NCBI RefSeq assembly: GCF_007826885.1 | Contig: NZ_ML675582.1 | Span: forward strand, 1-64,000 | DNA from: Candidatus Nitrosocosmicus arcticus | Lineage (GTDB): Archaea; Thermoproteota; Nitrososphaeria; Nitrososphaerales; Nitrososphaeraceae | DNA length: 64,000 nucleotides | Direction: 5' to 3' | Part shown: piece after piece, positions 28,603-36,168 of the stretch | Numbering within the stretch: the stretch's first letter is position 1 | How the letters are laid out: each line of letters starts with the position of its first letter | The notes under the pieces: generated by a model | Database searches by the model: none | Seen by the model: only the letters and a program-made list of their open reading frames with translations | What the model was told of the DNA's origin: nothing | Translations under genes and position numbers: made by a program

Positions 28603-29361
28603 ATGATGGTTAAAGACCACTCAAACTTTAACTATTTTCATTTTCTAGTTCTGATTCATTTGCTGTCAAATGGAGGTAAGGACATTTATTTAGAAATTAC
28701 GAGTACACAAATAAGTCGTTTAATTAATAGATCCCAACAAACAGCATCGAAGTTACTGATCGACCTAGAGAAAGAAAACCTAATAGAAAGAGTAAAGAAC
28801 AAAAAGAAGTTTGGAATGAAACTGACAGGAACCGGTTTCGAAATATTACAGAATATTTATAATTTATTAAAAACATCTATGGAGAAATCCCATACTAAGC
28901 CTGTGCTTTTTAAGGGGAAGATCGTTACAGGAATGGGAGAGGGCGCCTATTATATGTCCCTAGATGGATACAAGAAACAGTTCCACCATAAATTGGGTTA
29001 TGAGCCATTTCCTGGAACGCTTAATGTAAAGATCGAGGATAAGAACTACGTAAATTCAAGAAAAGATTTGATAAATTACCCCTCTATTTACATTGACGGG
29101 TTCAAAAATTCAGATAGAACTTTTGGCTGGGTGAGATGCTATCCTGCCTCGATAGCTCAAGAATCCAAATTCTCTAGTGAGTGGATCGAATCGCAACTAC
29201 CTGATCCTTCAACTGATGTTCACGTTCTTTTATTGGAAAGGACCCATCATAACAACAACCTAATAGAGGTCATTGGCCCTTTGAACATAAAAGAATCATC
29301 CAATCTCAAAAATGGAGATAATGTAGTAATAAAGATTAAAGAGTCTGCGCGAAACACTTAA
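28603..29361 (+). CDS. ribK: CTP-dependent riboflavin kinase with winged-helix domain
   Basis: Archaeal RibK phosphorylates riboflavin to FMN using CTP. Here 252 residues contain an N-terminal winged helix (ISRLINRSQQTASKLLIDLE near 37-56, ERVKNKKKFGMKLTGTGFEI) and the C-terminal kinase domain (KGKIVTGMGEGAYYMSLDGY near 104-123, LGYEPFPGTLNVKI near 131-144, GWVRCYPASI near 175-184, VHVLLLERTHH). The HTH fusion suggests the enzyme may also regulate riboflavin genes, as found for related fusions (RbkR). The stop overlaps by 4 bp with that of the convergent FAD synthase gene, the next enzyme in the pathway. Confidence 0.92.
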   Translation: MMVKDHSNFNYFHFLVLIHLLSNGGKDIYLEITSTQISRLINRSQQTASKLLIDLEKENLIERVKNKKKFGMKLTGTGFEILQNIYNLLKTSMEKSHTKPVLFKGKIVTGMGEGAYYMSLDGYKKQFHHKLGYEPFPGTLNVKIEDKNYVNSRKDLINYPSIYIDGFKNSDRTFGWVRCYPASIAQESKFSSEWIESQLPDPSTDVHVLLLERTHHNNNLIEVIGPLNIKESSNLKNGDNVVIKIKESARNT

Positions 29362-30113
29362 AGATCATAAAAAGAGTTTCCCAGTTCGCTTTTAATTAAA
29401 GAACTTTTGAGTTCTGGAATTGGGGAAGACAATCTGACAACATCTAGATTCAAGCCTCGATCAAAACAGTTCTTTTTCATTGCTATTTCATCATGAATTT
29501 GATCATACCCTAAAGCGATCACGTCTGGCCTCACGAATTCAACCGTATCATATATTGATTTTTTTCTTCCAATGACGGCTTTATCTACAAATTTTATAGA
29601 TGAAACTAACTCTAACCTGCTTTTTTCATCATGGTAAATCTTGCGATTTTTTTTCAAGTTGCTAACTGTGGAGTCAGTTGCAACTACAATAATTAGGACA
29701 TCCCCTAATAATTTTGCAGATTTTAATGTATGAATATGGCCAACATGAAGTAGATCAAACACCCCGCCCACAAGCACAACTTTGATCTTTGCACGACCCA
29801 AGTTCGTAAGTGTGCAAGTCATATTGCTAAAGCTTTTTTTAGAATCTGGTTTATCGTGTTTTGTAACTATTAATCCAAGCTTTTCAAGTTCTGCTAGTTG
29901 ATTTTTGTAGATAGTCACATCGAGTTCCAATTTTTTCATTAAATCGGGCAATATGGGAATAGGAAGTCGGTTATCAACCAAATTATTGCTATATATTGAA
30001 CATAGTAGGAACCGTTGTATTGAGTTCATTAAATTTGATTTACCATGAACTTTCACCGTATATAATTTTACAGCCCGTAATCGATCGGTTCGCAGAATAA
30101 TAAAATTCAGCAT
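29358..30113 (-). CDS. ribL: FAD synthase with N-terminal winged helix
   Basis: A 251-residue protein. Residues 110-250 form a nucleotidyltransferase of the RibL type, which adenylates FMN to FAD: VVLVGGVFDLLHVGHIHTLK near 114-133 with the HxGH motif, VATDSTVSNLKKNR near 144-157, the conserved RLELVSSIKFVDKAV and RPDVIALGYDQ near 196-206. Residues 15-105 look like a winged helix (DVTIYKNQLAELEKLGLIVT). Archaeal RibL is usually about 150 residues, so the fused DNA-binding domain is extra. It mirrors the HTH on RibK, the convergent neighbour making its substrate. CDP-glycerol-type cytidylyltransferase is a less likely alternative. Confidence 0.85.
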   Translation of the reverse strand: MLNFIILRTDRLRAVKLYTVKVHGKSNLMNSIQRFLLCSIYSNNLVDNRLPIPILPDLMKKLELDVTIYKNQLAELEKLGLIVTKHDKPDSKKSFSNMTCTLTNLGRAKIKVVLVGGVFDLLHVGHIHTLKSAKLLGDVLIIVVATDSTVSNLKKNRKIYHDEKSRLELVSSIKFVDKAVIGRKKSIYDTVEFVRPDVIALGYDQIHDEIAMKKNCFDRGLNLDVVRLSSPIPELKSSLIKSELGNSFYDL

Positions 30114-31822: not shown

Positions 31823-32275
31823 ATGAATCTGGATTTTGCCCACAATAAAGTAATATTCATAATTCTTTTATCTATTGGATTTACTTTGGCGATGTACTGG
31901 GTATTAAGCTACTCAATAAGTCAGCCCAACTCTACTTCTGGAAGACTTATACCAGAAGAAGCTTATATCATAATTCTACACGATGTATTTAATCAATCTT
32001 TAGATCATTTGAGGAATATTACTTTTGAAGATCTTGATGGGAAATTTACAGCGAAATATGTAATGGTAAAAGCTGATGGGACCATATATCAAGCAGATCA
32101 AGAAACTCACGAATTAGGTAAAATACTAGGCAATACCGCTGAACCCCTAACTGGTGGTATCCATTATGGCTGGGAAATTACGGCAAATAATACAAATTAT
32201 TATATCGATTCTACAAGTGGTCAGATGATCTCTTACCCAGAAATATCCAATCAGAATCAGAATTCAGATTCTTGA
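31823..32275 (+). CDS. Membrane-anchored exported protein, possibly PepSY-like
   Basis: A 150-residue protein with one N-terminal membrane segment (IIFIILLSIGFTLAMYWVL-like, residues 10-29) and an extracytoplasmic part of about 120 residues. The repeated pattern of a strand plus Asp-Gly turn (AKYVMVKADGTIYQAD near 73-88) and the ending YYIDSTSGQMISYP resemble a PepSY-type domain, as in secreted inhibitor-like proteins. Similarity is weak. The last 19 bp overlap the end of the convergent HemB-like gene. Confidence 0.6.
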   Translation: MNLDFAHNKVIFIILLSIGFTLAMYWVLSYSISQPNSTSGRLIPEEAYIIILHDVFNQSLDHLRNITFEDLDGKFTAKYVMVKADGTIYQADQETHELGKILGNTAEPLTGGIHYGWEITANNTNYYIDSTSGQMISYPEISNQNQNSDS

Positions 32276-33303
32276 TATAGACGTTTATCAAATTCATCAA
32301 GTAAATCGAGCATTAAATAAGAAATTATTTTATCGGCACCAGCCCTTTTTAAACTTTTGAAATATAGAATTATCCATTCACGCTGGTCAATCGGGTCTAT
32401 TTTTGAACCTGCTTTTAACAACGCATACTCGCCTGAGACATTTTGAACCACCAAAGGGACGTCTATTAGATTTTTAGTCAATCTTACCAGATCCATATAC
32501 CATAACGAAGGTTTTATCATTACCCAGTCTGAACCCTCCTGTACATCATGCAAAATTTCTCGTATTGACTCCCTAGGATTATTGAAATTACTTTGGTAGC
32601 TTGATTTATCTATAAAGTTAGGATTAAGATAATTATAATTACGAAACGGCGAGTATAAACAAGAATTTTGTTTAGCGGAATAACCCATAATTTTGACTTT
32701 TTTGAACCCATTCCGGTCTAACAGATTTGAAAGGTACAAGATTTGACCATCCATCATGGATGATGGGGCTATAAAATCGGCTCCACTCTCGCAGTGACTT
32801 AAAGAAATCTTTCCCAGGATATTTAGAGTCTTGTCATTATCTATCCTTATTCCACGCTCTTGTTGTTTAGCAGTATCTACGTATCCATTTGTCACACCAC
32901 AGTGACCGGTTATGTTGTATTGGCATATACATACGTCTGATAGTATGTTTAATTTCTTATCAAAAGTTTTTTTTATCGTTTGGATCGCCCGTTGGATCAC
33001 ACCAGTCTTATTAAAAGCTTCACTACCCAAGCTGTTTCTTTTTTTTGGAATCCCAAATAACAACAAATTGGAGATTTTTAGCTTAGCCAACTCTTCAACC
33101 CTATTGGTTAAATTCTTTGAAAATATCTTTGAGTTATTCATATATCCAGAATTTAAGCTTTGATTGTAGGCGTGTTCGTCTTCATAAACGAATACTGGAA
33201 AAATTAGATCATCCTGTATACGTTCAAGAAATGTCAATAGATTTTTAATAAGTGGGTCAAATGATATAATAAATCTAACTGCAAGGGAGAGAATAGATAG
33301 CAT
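32257..33303 (-). CDS. Divergent porphobilinogen synthase (HemB-like)
   Basis: Porphobilinogen synthase condenses two 5-aminolevulinates into a pyrrole. In this 348-residue protein the core is recognisable: LIFPVFVYED near 33-42, LLLFGIPKKRNSLGSEAF near 80-97, the three zinc-type cysteines in SDVCICQYNITGHCG near 122-136, FIAPSSMMDGQI near 176-187, the two Schiff-base lysines in GYSAKQNS and VMIKPSLWYMD, and VSGEYAL. Surrounding residues differ from typical HemB (YSAKQNSCLYSPFRNY instead of the usual YSAKxASxFYGPFR), and the usual arginine-rich N-terminal arm (RxRRLR) is missing. It overlaps the GNAT gene by 29 bp, far from any other haem gene. It may be a true HemB or a paralog that condenses other aminoketones. 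Confidence 0.8.
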   Translation of the reverse strand: MLSILSLAVRFIISFDPLIKNLLTFLERIQDDLIFPVFVYEDEHAYNQSLNSGYMNNSKIFSKNLTNRVEELAKLKISNLLLFGIPKKRNSLGSEAFNKTGVIQRAIQTIKKTFDKKLNILSDVCICQYNITGHCGVTNGYVDTAKQQERGIRIDNDKTLNILGKISLSHCESGADFIAPSSMMDGQILYLSNLLDRNGFKKVKIMGYSAKQNSCLYSPFRNYNYLNPNFIDKSSYQSNFNNPRESIREILHDVQEGSDWVMIKPSLWYMDLVRLTKNLIDVPLVVQNVSGEYALLKAGSKIDPIDQREWIILYFKSLKRAGADKIISYLMLDLLDEFDKRLYQESEF

Positions 33304-34123
33304 TAGTATAAACTTTTTTGAAATGTCGTCTTTGATAAAATCCTAGTTTGTGGTCACTATGCAGTGCCTGAAGTCCTATAAGATCAAACCCATTTATTTG
33401 GGCATAATTTATTGCATAATCTATGATGCTCGAAGCGATGCCCTTATTTCTATGCCTCTGATCGGTACCTAAACAGTACACGCCCAGGGCTTCATTTGTT
33501 GGAAAAAGCAAGCAACATCCTATTGGTTTTAAATTTTGCCTGGTTCTAGTATAGTCCGATTTTTGTTTATACAAAATAAATTTACTGTCTCTAAAATTCT
33601 CTTTTTGAAGAATAGCCCGTATAGGAGCTCTTTTTTCCATGTTGATCCCAAATGCCGACGAATAAACATTTAGCCAATCATCTAATTCATCGGTGAAGCT
33701 GACCAACTCATATGTTTCTCTTTTAGAGAGTGGTTTTTGTAATTCAAATTCATTTAGTGGAAAAGGTTTTTGATCTTTAACGACATTGACTAATCCGTTC
33801 AATTTATCAATTCCTCTTAAGCCGTTCTTTTCAAGTATTGATTTAAAGGATGAAAAGTTATCATCGATATGGACATAAGCATCAATTACTTGTTGTTTGG
33901 AAACTTCTTTTAGTTTTGATATAATTGATGATATTTTCCGCTCATTCCTATTAGAGACCCCGATTACATTTGTTAAAATGACTCGGTTAAGAAAATAGTC
34001 GCCTTTTAGATCTCGGTTAGATAAAACATGGAAGGAATTCTTTAAGTCGATTGTATTATTACTCCAATTCTTACAGAATTCAAGTTCATTCGATTTCAGT
34101 TTCTCAATGATACTGCAATCCAA
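33275..34123 (-). CDS. GNAT-family N-acetyltransferase
   Basis: A 282-residue protein. The C-terminal half carries a GNAT domain with the acetyl-CoA loop in GTDQRHRNKGIASSIIDYAI near 219-238, preceded by a strand (GCCLLFPTNEALGVYCLG) and followed by LIGLQALHSDHKLGFYQR near 248-265. The N-terminal 140 residues form a separate, unrecognised alpha/beta region, perhaps a second degenerate GNAT half. It overlaps the CysRS-like gene by 20 bp upstream and the HemB-like gene by 29 bp downstream, so all three are likely made together. The substrate is unknown. A small amine from the same pathway is plausible. Confidence 0.8.
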   Translation of the reverse strand: MDCSIIEKLKSNELEFCKNWSNNTIDLKNSFHVLSNRDLKGDYFLNRVILTNVIGVSNRNERKISSIISKLKEVSKQQVIDAYVHIDDNFSSFKSILEKNGLRGIDKLNGLVNVVKDQKPFPLNEFELQKPLSKRETYELVSFTDELDDWLNVYSSAFGINMEKRAPIRAILQKENFRDSKFILYKQKSDYTRTRQNLKPIGCCLLFPTNEALGVYCLGTDQRHRNKGIASSIIDYAINYAQINGFDLIGLQALHSDHKLGFYQRRHFKKVYTNAIYSLPCS

Positions 34124-35255
34124 GTAAATCAGTCATTTTCTTTATGTTACTAACATTTTCTAGATCTCTTATACACTTTATGATATACCTTATTGCTGAT
34201 TTTGTGTCATAATTATTATTCAACATTCTCAAAAACTTGGAAAATTTTTGTCTATCGGATTCGTTCACAGATTCTGTTATTTTTCCGTTTTTCACAAATT
34301 CCGATATGAAATACGATGAAATTTCATTGTCTGCAAGAATAGCGTTTTTCAATTTTGTTTCATGAAAACTAAAGTCGTTGTCGTAGATCTCACCCAAGAA
34401 AAGGAGTTTGAGAGAATTTGGAGAATATTTGTTTAGAAAATCACTGATAGTAATAGTATTGCCGCTTGAATTTGACATCTTCTTAGACTTAATTTTCAAA
34501 ATACCTACATGAATCCACTTTGGTTTTTTTTCGTTTTCCTGGGTAATCCGCTGCATCTGACGAGAAATTTTAAAAATGAATTCGTGGTGAGGATATACCA
34601 ACTCTTCTGCCCCACCATGTATATCATAGTAATTGTTAAAAACAGATTTAATGATTTGAAAATCTTGATAGTGCCATCCGGGGATACCGCTAACTAAGTT
34701 CTTAAAATAGAATTCAGAGCGTTCATCGCCCATTATAGCGAGTTCATAAAAATTCTCCGCATTCCAAAGCATTATATCTTTTTGATCTAGTTTACCTGAC
34801 GAGATATCAATAGGCATATTGTCCAACTCTTCAGTTGTGAAGCCAAAAGGACTCTTGATATCTGAATCTATTTTAAGATAAACATTACCTCCATAAGAGT
34901 AAGCCTTCTTGAGTTTAAGTAAGTTTATTATTTGGTTCATCATTTGAACCTGGAAATTAGACACTCGGGTGAACGTGAAATTTTCAATAACTTGCAATTT
35001 TTGTAAATCCTTGGTCAGTTGGTTCAGATGATGGGAAGTCATATTATCAAGTGAAACATTATTATCATCTGTCCTCATTTTAGCGAATATTTTTGGGTCT
35101 ATATCAGTTAATTGTACGACAGCAATGGGACATTGGCCCAAATATTTGTAATAATTGATGAGAAAATTAAAAAAAATAAAAATTCTGGCATGTCCCAAGT
35201 GGCTTTTTTCATACAAGGTTGGCCCGCAGATAAAAATTTTCATTTTTTTATGCAT
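34104..35255 (-). CDS. CysRS/MshC-like ligase lacking two zinc ligands
   Basis: A 383-residue class I ligase related to cysteinyl-tRNA synthetase. Present are FICGPTLYEKSHLGHARI near 8-25 (HIGH motif HLGH and the first zinc Cys), DIHGGAEELVYPHHE near 215-229 and a KMSKS variant, KKMSNSSG. Typical CysRS has four zinc ligands that read the cysteine thiol. Here the segment GWHYQDFQI lacks the Cys of the usual GWHIECS, and the Glu of HHENE is absent (HHEFI). The protein ends at LLGLQYH, without the C-terminal anticodon-binding part, as in the mycothiol ligase MshC. It probably ligates an amino acid to a small molecule. An in-frame TAA lies just upstream of the ATG. Confidence 0.82.
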   Translation of the reverse strand: MHKKMKIFICGPTLYEKSHLGHARIFIFFNFLINYYKYLGQCPIAVVQLTDIDPKIFAKMRTDDNNVSLDNMTSHHLNQLTKDLQKLQVIENFTFTRVSNFQVQMMNQIINLLKLKKAYSYGGNVYLKIDSDIKSPFGFTTEELDNMPIDISSGKLDQKDIMLWNAENFYELAIMGDERSEFYFKNLVSGIPGWHYQDFQIIKSVFNNYYDIHGGAEELVYPHHEFIFKISRQMQRITQENEKKPKWIHVGILKIKSKKMSNSSGNTITISDFLNKYSPNSLKLLFLGEIYDNDFSFHETKLKNAILADNEISSYFISEFVKNGKITESVNESDRQKFSKFLRMLNNNYDTKSAIRYIIKCIRDLENVSNIKKMTDLLGLQYH

Positions 35256-35349
35256 AATTTAAAAATAAGGAACACTAAATTATTTCTCCGAGTTTACAGA
35301 TATGGAAGGTCGCCATGAAATTCAAATAGAAGATCACAAATATTTTTGG

Positions 35350-36168
35350 CTAAATATTCTTAATGTTACCAGCATTTGTACTATCATACCGCTTTAGGGT
35401 CTTTACTATCATATAAACATCTTCTTTACTATTACAAATTCGACCTATTTTGATACAGTCTCTTATATCTCTGGATTTCAGTTTAATCCAAACTAATTGA
35501 GCAATCAGAGTTGAGATTTCATAATCAATATTACACTCACTTGCTAAAATATGGTTTGATATCTTTTCAAATGTAGCGTAATCATATTTCTTAAAGTAGA
35601 GGACAAAAAAACGTGATAACAGTGGGGTTAAAAGTTTTTTTTCGTCATTGCAAGATGCAAAAACCCATGTCCTCATGATTGATTTTCGAGTTTTTTCATA
35701 CTTGGTTTCACTTAATATTCCAGTTTCCATTAGACTCAACAAGGCTGCCTGATCCTTGATTGCCATGTATTCAATTTCATCGATTATAAGATTTTTTGGT
35801 CTGTTATTGAATAAATAATCTAACATTCCGGCTTTTGTGCTATGACTACCTAATGTAAAATAGGAACGTGAAAGTTTCATACATTCCATCAAGAATAGCG
35901 TTTTGGCTGATCCGGGGGGACCCACTAACAATATATGGACGGGCAATGATGAATTAAATGCATAATTAAAAATTTTTTTAATGTCATCATATCCAACTAT
36001 GTTTGCAAATAAGTTTTCTGATATTTCCATGGAATTTTTTTCAATCTGAGGTGCCTCTAAATTATCATGATAATTCTTATTCTCGATCTTTTTTCGAATC
36101 CTCATCTTATTACTGCTGCTAATTGAGTTCATTCCATTCTCTTGCACATCAGTAGAATGGTCTTGCAT
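35350..36168 (-). CDS. AAA-type ATPase
   Basis: A 272-residue ATPase. Residues 55-215 hold the AAA+ core: Walker A VGPPGSAKTLF near 80-90, Walker B LIIDEIEYM near 124-132, sensor ASCNDEKKL near 172-180 and the arginine finger region LLSRFFVLYF near 184-193. A short C-terminal helical lid follows. The N-terminal 45 residues are polar and probably disordered. It resembles RuvB- or clamp-loader-like archaeal AAA proteins of unknown role. It is 94 bp upstream of the CysRS-like gene on the same strand and could lead that transcription unit, though the gap allows an independent promoter. Confidence 0.8.
   Translation of the reverse strand: MQDHSTDVQENGMNSISSSNKMRIRKKIENKNYHDNLEAPQIEKNSMEISENLFANIVGYDDIKKIFNYAFNSSLPVHILLVGPPGSAKTLFLMECMKLSRSYFTLGSHSTKAGMLDYLFNNRPKNLIIDEIEYMAIKDQAALLSLMETGILSETKYEKTRKSIMRTWVFASCNDEKKLLTPLLSRFFVLYFKKYDYATFEKISNHILASECNIDYEISTLIAQLVWIKLKSRDIRDCIKIGRICNSKEDVYMIVKTLKRYDSTNAGNIKNI

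Follow-up and report, generated by a model that had tools for sequence, protein, structure and literature searches.

A 64,000-nucleotide stretch of the Candidatus Nitrosocosmicus arcticus genome (contig NZ_ML675582.1, positions 1 to 64,000; the window) carries four closely spaced genes, for a small AAA+ ATPase, a ligase resembling cysteinyl-tRNA synthetase (LIG), a GNAT acetyltransferase and a second porphobilinogen-synthase-like protein of its genus (HemB2). Do these genes serve one pathway, as an initial annotation of the sequence had supposed, or do they merely share a neighborhood? The four open reading frames (ORFs) indeed lie on one strand, the minus strand, and Pfam assigned them an AAA/MCM-type P-loop, a catalytic domain of cysteinyl-tRNA synthetase (CysRS), a GNAT domain and an ALAD domain.

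To compare neighborhoods, we retrieved 40 loci carrying the ligase in a first round and added further loci later. The ligase gene is paired with the GNAT gene, mostly as overlapping genes, in about 34 of the 40 loci of the first round and likewise in the majority of those added; its recurrence in many families of the order leads us to dismiss a chance association. The AAA and HemB2 genes, by contrast, are confined to the window's genus among the 40 ligase loci; the other families examined have the ligase-GNAT pair without either. Conservation of all four genes together thus holds within the genus, where the set sits in a wholly syntenic region, and fails outside it.

Within the genus, ligase and GNAT were jointly present or jointly absent in all 15 genomes, with both in 11 and neither in the remaining four (G002, G003, G005 and G007). 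These four retain the AAA and HemB2 genes in the same syntenic region, 276-449 bp apart (L107-L110), so the ligase-GNAT cassette comes or goes without affecting the AAA-HemB2 pair. These results show that the four genes are two units, and that HemB2 and the AAA ATPase are neighbors outside the ligase/acetyltransferase system. Both drop out of the hypothesis, which redirects any experiment.

A ligase derived from cysteinyl-tRNA synthetase

LIG (34104-35255, minus strand) has 383 amino acids (aa), compared to 464-508 aa for the CysRS of the same order, and lacks the last 80-100 residues. Its profile match and its AlphaFold model both stop after the helical bundle; together with the length, this bears out the earlier description of a CysRS-like protein without an anticodon domain. 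The model, with mean pLDDT 87, resembles structures of CysRS and of MshC along the whole chain. LIG scored below the cut-offs of both corresponding NCBIfam models, with 174 bits against 340 for cysS (TIGR00435) and 100 bits against 485 for mycothiol_MshC (TIGR03447). A HIGH motif (HLGHAR) and a KMSNS motif are present, and across the family HIGH, KMSKS and the amino-acid-pocket residues W194 and H213 are near-invariant. A plasmid search with the ligase returned distant relatives only, the best of them annotated as CysRS.

The ligase had also been called zinc-less, which is partly right. Of the positions that form the Cys/Cys/His/Glu zinc site of CysRS, Cys10 and His223 are invariant and the second Cys is replaced by Asp198 in 40 of 40 relatives. 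The fourth varies: basal members keep Glu, and others have His, Ile, Leu or a different residue. The Cys-to-Asp change is also seen in full-length CysRS of other archaea of the phylum, where Asp stands at the position of the second zinc Cys (WHIED; L089-L104, L122 and L123). In 11 genomes where no SepRS reached its cut-off, this Asp-type enzyme is the sole CysRS found (E < 1e-50), which implies that Asp is compatible with cysteine charging; the Asp-type CysRS probably works on cysteine. In f13, a family of the same order, Asp-type CysRS is accompanied by SepRS. In protein farnesyltransferase a thiolate is bound at a zinc site made of Asp, Cys and His. Zinc loss as proof against cysteine, an argument we considered, loses force given the genomes that have Asp-type CysRS and no SepRS. 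Given its conserved pocket residues and the Asp site that it shares with CysRS, the likeliest amino acid for LIG appears to be cysteine, with a chance at or slightly above even. That Asp can apparently stand in for a zinc-binding Cys in presumably working archaeal CysRS bears on how cysteine is recognized.

In a maximum-likelihood tree, all 37 ligases fell in one group (SH-aLRT 100) adjoining the Asp-type CysRS. In the same tree MshC fell with the translational CysRS of Nitrososphaerales and bacterial CysRS, which are Cys-type, and the ligase lay outside; as MshC is a single row on a long branch, its exact place is uncertain and we give this result moderate weight. An MshC-like ligase thus appears, from the sequences compared, to have arisen twice, independently, and a shared origin of LIG and MshC is not supported.

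Partners of the ligase

The GNAT gene (33275-34123, minus strand) overlaps the ligase gene by the 20 bp first reported, and many relatives keep an overlap, of 4-65 bp. Alignment and a structural model (pLDDT 87) of its 282-aa product, ACETYLTRANSFERASE, show a tandem protein with a degenerate N-terminal GNAT and an active-looking C-terminal GNAT that carries the acyl-CoA motif LGTxxxxRxxGIA. The top Foldseek matches were mostly tandem GNATs, among them the MshD structures 2c27 and 1ozp (TM about 0.57-0.59). The window's GNAT fell short of the NCBIfam MshD model; of 29 members only 3 matched that model at all, with E near 3e-4, and equal or better matches came from other GNAT models. In a profile comparison, ligase and GNAT were unrelated to each other. 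The perceived echo of the MshC/MshD pair of mycothiol synthesis therefore extends to the domains present, to the missing anticodon domain and to the tandem-GNAT fold, and is conserved far beyond this genome.

A third gene is inherited with the ligase. It encodes a small protein of 82-129 aa that in many lineages is divergently transcribed just upstream of the ligase gene and in most Nitrososphaeraceae is unlinked to it; in the window's genome it lies apart from the pair, at 110120-110428 of contig C10. A search of the family gave no Pfam or PDB match. Of 201 relatives, 97 had homologues detected by a profile of the small protein, and this set nearly coincides with the ligase-positive genomes, with ligase presence per genome taken from E-values and match counts. 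Across all Nitrososphaeraceae, 34 genomes had both genes, two the ligase only, four the small protein only and 30 neither; in those at least 90% complete the counts were 25, 0, 1 and 13 (Fisher 1.7e-9). Among 40 sampled Nitrosopumilaceae, five had both, 35 had neither and none had only one. Many genomes are incomplete, and absences were cross-checked by synteny in the window's genus only, where the purC-to-ilvD interval is intact in the four ligase-minus genomes and contains no small-protein ORF. Mapped onto a CysRS tree covering 52 genomes, both traits change nine times, and in independent pairs on well-supported branches small protein and ligase agree in six of six (p 0.031).

The small protein ended in tyrosine in all 50 homologues read. 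Even the most divergent of these, whose match to the profile excluded its last columns, had the terminal Tyr, which is therefore not merely an artefact of the search. This co-inherited orphan protein offers an immediate handle on the pathway.

In some lineages a further partner is apparent. In several genomes of family f10, the gene for a protein of about 165 aa with an HELVH motif (a weak M78 match) either overlaps the GNAT gene or comes straight after it, and in a genome of another order (G530; L105:9752-11068) the GNAT is fused to the same protein, an M78-like HExxH metalloprotein. The HExxH protein occurs in all five ligase-positive genomes among the 40 sampled Nitrosopumilaceae and in no other of them; none of the Nitrososphaeraceae searched yielded it.

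Two side observations concern these loci. A radical SAM gene (c24, 357-436 aa) is the immediate or nearly immediate upstream neighbor of the ligase gene in genera g3 and g12 (L049, L052, L053, L055, L056 and L063). The public record JACDCB010000019.1 (L035 / L036), titled 'Nitrosopumilus sp.', is apparently the same contig as one in G014, a genome of the window's genus in the Nitrososphaeraceae, and its title is apparently wrong.

HemB2 and neighboring genes

HemB2 (348 aa; 32257-33303, minus strand) keeps both Schiff-base lysines and the zinc cysteines (YSAK, MIKP and DVCICQYNITGHCG are present) and scores 307 bits against Pfam ALAD. The 29-bp overlap with the GNAT gene noted in the initial annotation is probably an artefact of choosing the first ATG as start codon. 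In close relatives the gene starts at a TTG 22 codons later, and the equivalent TTG here, at 33237, is probably the true start; a start there leaves a gap of 37 bp between the GNAT and HemB2 genes instead of an overlap. In all 15 aligned genus members the Arg of the GDRxSYQ motif of HemB2 is replaced by Lys, and HemB2 of the ligase-minus clade, and of G009, has a long low-complexity insert after SGEY.

It had been asked whether the HemB-like and CysRS-like genes might be the genome's only haem and tRNA enzymes. In the window's genome, which is 98% complete, contig C1 encodes a full-length CysRS whose zinc motif (WHIEC) is ordinary. An ordinary HemB is encoded on C8, where its neighbors are HemA and a sirohaem-type NAD protein and where HemL and HemC follow after about 3-5 kb; this haem gene cluster contains that HemB and not HemB2. 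Neither the ligase nor HemB2 is therefore the housekeeping enzyme, and a role for either as the sole tRNA or haem enzyme is ruled out.

The AAA+ ATPase gene (272 aa; 35350-36168, minus strand), a genus-level neighbor, lies 94 bp from the ligase gene, the distance given before. In one relative (G001; L042:7800-8800) it is split into two ORFs, a pseudogene or an assembly error. Elsewhere in the window, at 28603-30113, two archaeal flavin genes stand back to back in an arrangement that is syntenic throughout the genus; one encodes a CTP-dependent riboflavin kinase (DUF120) with an N-terminal winged helix and the other a cytidylyltransferase with an N-terminal winged-helix-like part. A search for RNA families near the four genes in the window gave none above threshold, only sub-threshold snoRNA-like matches.

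Possible functions and relation to known systems

What, then, might the ligase and acetyltransferase do? We lean slightly towards reading LIG and GNAT as a two-enzyme unit of the Nitrososphaeria that has the small Tyr-ended protein as an obligate partner and works as follows. The ligase, descended by its sequence from archaeal Asp-type CysRS, would consume ATP to convert an amino acid, most likely cysteine, into its adenylate. As it has no anticodon domain, it would then hand the aminoacyl group on to a nucleophile, such as an amine, other than a normal tRNA. The tandem GNAT would acetylate the product, probably at the free amino group, as MshD acts after MshC, and the small protein would serve as acceptor or carrier, as subunit or as regulator. 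The favored product is an N-acetylated aminoacyl, probably cysteinyl, conjugate. Tentatively, and with less confidence than we place in the unit itself, we suggest an undescribed three-component system of the Nitrososphaeria in which the anticodon-less cysteine ligase, the tandem acetyltransferase and the Tyr-ended protein make an N-acetyl-aminoacyl conjugate on, or released from, the protein, as a thiol cofactor or a protein tag.

Several observations weigh against this proposal. The Cys-to-Asp change could shift amino-acid specificity within the ligase branch, and many members have lost the fourth zinc ligand. In L075 and in a few genomes of genera g4 and g7, the ligase gene stands without a detected GNAT neighbor. 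The small protein is without a known fold, so that its role is a guess, and no tRNA gene is consistently nearby, but a special tRNA could be encoded elsewhere.

Other explanations account for parts of the same evidence. The ligase might join Cys to an amino sugar-inositol or similar acceptor and the GNAT acetylate it, with the small protein as an accessory, in an archaeal counterpart of mycothiol. The domain pair and fold matches are MshC/MshD-like, cysteine is still plausible as substrate, and in several Nitrososphaeraceae and Nitrosopumilaceae the gene immediately downstream of the pair encodes a myo-inositol-1-phosphate synthase. This adjacency is suggestive of an inositol acceptor but is weakened because it is confounded by synteny with an adjacent SMC gene, and the synthase serves archaeal lipids too. 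Such a thiol would also join a lineage in which, according to passages of PMC7554672, Nitrososphaerales already carry gamma-glutamylcysteine and ergothioneine genes, and it leaves the small protein unexplained; we regard it as possible but doubtful. The distribution of MshB-type (PIG-L) deacetylases argues against this reading and led us to set aside mycothiol proper: they do not track the ligase, several positives having none and ligase-negatives having two or three. Against the archaeal counterpart it also counts that mycothiol has not been found in archaea (PMC7278568). Similarly tentative is protein modification, in which the ligase, with the GNAT, would put an acetylated amino acid on the Tyr-ended protein or use that protein as a carrier, and the HExxH protein would be a releasing peptidase in some lineages. 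The one-to-one co-inheritance of ligase and small protein from unlinked loci, the unvarying C-terminal Tyr and the HExxH protein adjoining or fused to the GNAT all fit, and class II aaRS-like carrier-protein ligases without a tRNA-binding domain exist (PMC9437257); but the Tyr hydroxyl is the sole invariant nucleophile of the small protein and would be an unusual acceptor, and the HExxH protein was absent from the Nitrososphaeraceae searched.

We consider it unlikely that the ligase is a specialized synthetase that charges one odd tRNA, like bacterial CysRS*/SelC*, with the GNAT acetylating the aminoacyl-tRNA. An anticodon-less CysRS in such a role exists (PMC9437257), but in 50 loci scanned no tRNA gene stood beside the pair bar scattered ordinary or doubtful ones, and the coupled small protein is again left unexplained. 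The single four-gene pathway of the initial annotation, leading to one acylated or pyrrole-containing molecule, is highly improbable. The shared strand, short spacing and genus-wide gene order would suit it, as would the retained catalytic residues of HemB2, but it is contradicted by the four same-genus genomes with AAA and HemB2 side by side and no pair, and by the other families with the pair alone; the pyrrole part of its product finds no support.

The ligase-GNAT pair has no description in the open-access literature covered by our text search. Reviews deny mycothiol genes to archaea, one noting no mycothiol and one MshD match only (PMC7278568), and against this background the pair would supply a second CysRS ligase, of separate derivation and accompanied by an acetyltransferase. 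The thiol acquisitions of ammonia-oxidizing archaea given in passages of PMC7554672 are gamma-glutamylcysteine ligase and ergothioneine genes, and the passages searched do not mention the pair. Earlier work listed MshC and CysRS* as the CysRS paralogues, with MshC as the non-tRNA metabolic use of the fold (PMC9437257), and raised the question whether MshC is a one-off among aaRS-derived ligases (PMC2922099). The pair is predicted in cultured Nitrososphaera species and is missing from most Nitrosopumilaceae sampled; if the more tentative three-component proposal is true, soil ammonia-oxidizing archaea would have a new thiol cofactor or protein tag.

A near parallel among known systems is MshC, the L-cysteine:GlcN-Ins ligase of mycothiol synthesis (PDB 3c8z and 8hfm). 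Like LIG, it consists of a CysRS catalytic domain and helical bundle with HIGH and KMSKS and no anticodon domain, keeps the first zinc Cys and the His, has a fourth ligand other than Glu, and acts before a GNAT. The two differ in score (the 100 bits of LIG fall far short of the MshC cut-off), in the second zinc Cys, which is Asp in LIG, and in placement, LIG beside Asp-type archaeal CysRS and MshC with the Cys-type. MshD, the mycothiol synthase (PDB 2c27 and 1ozp), resembles the GNAT in tandem architecture and not in sequence. With Asp-type archaeal CysRS the ligase shares the catalytic domain and the Asp, whereas it lacks the C-terminal residues of full-length CysRS and coexists with a full-length Cys-type enzyme in the window's genome. 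The aaRS-like amino acid:carrier protein ligases are class II and CysRS* uses tRNA, and neither is reported in PMC9437257 with a GNAT and a Tyr-ended small protein; what they have in common with the course proposed for LIG is the loss of a tRNA- or anticodon-binding domain and the gain of another acceptor.

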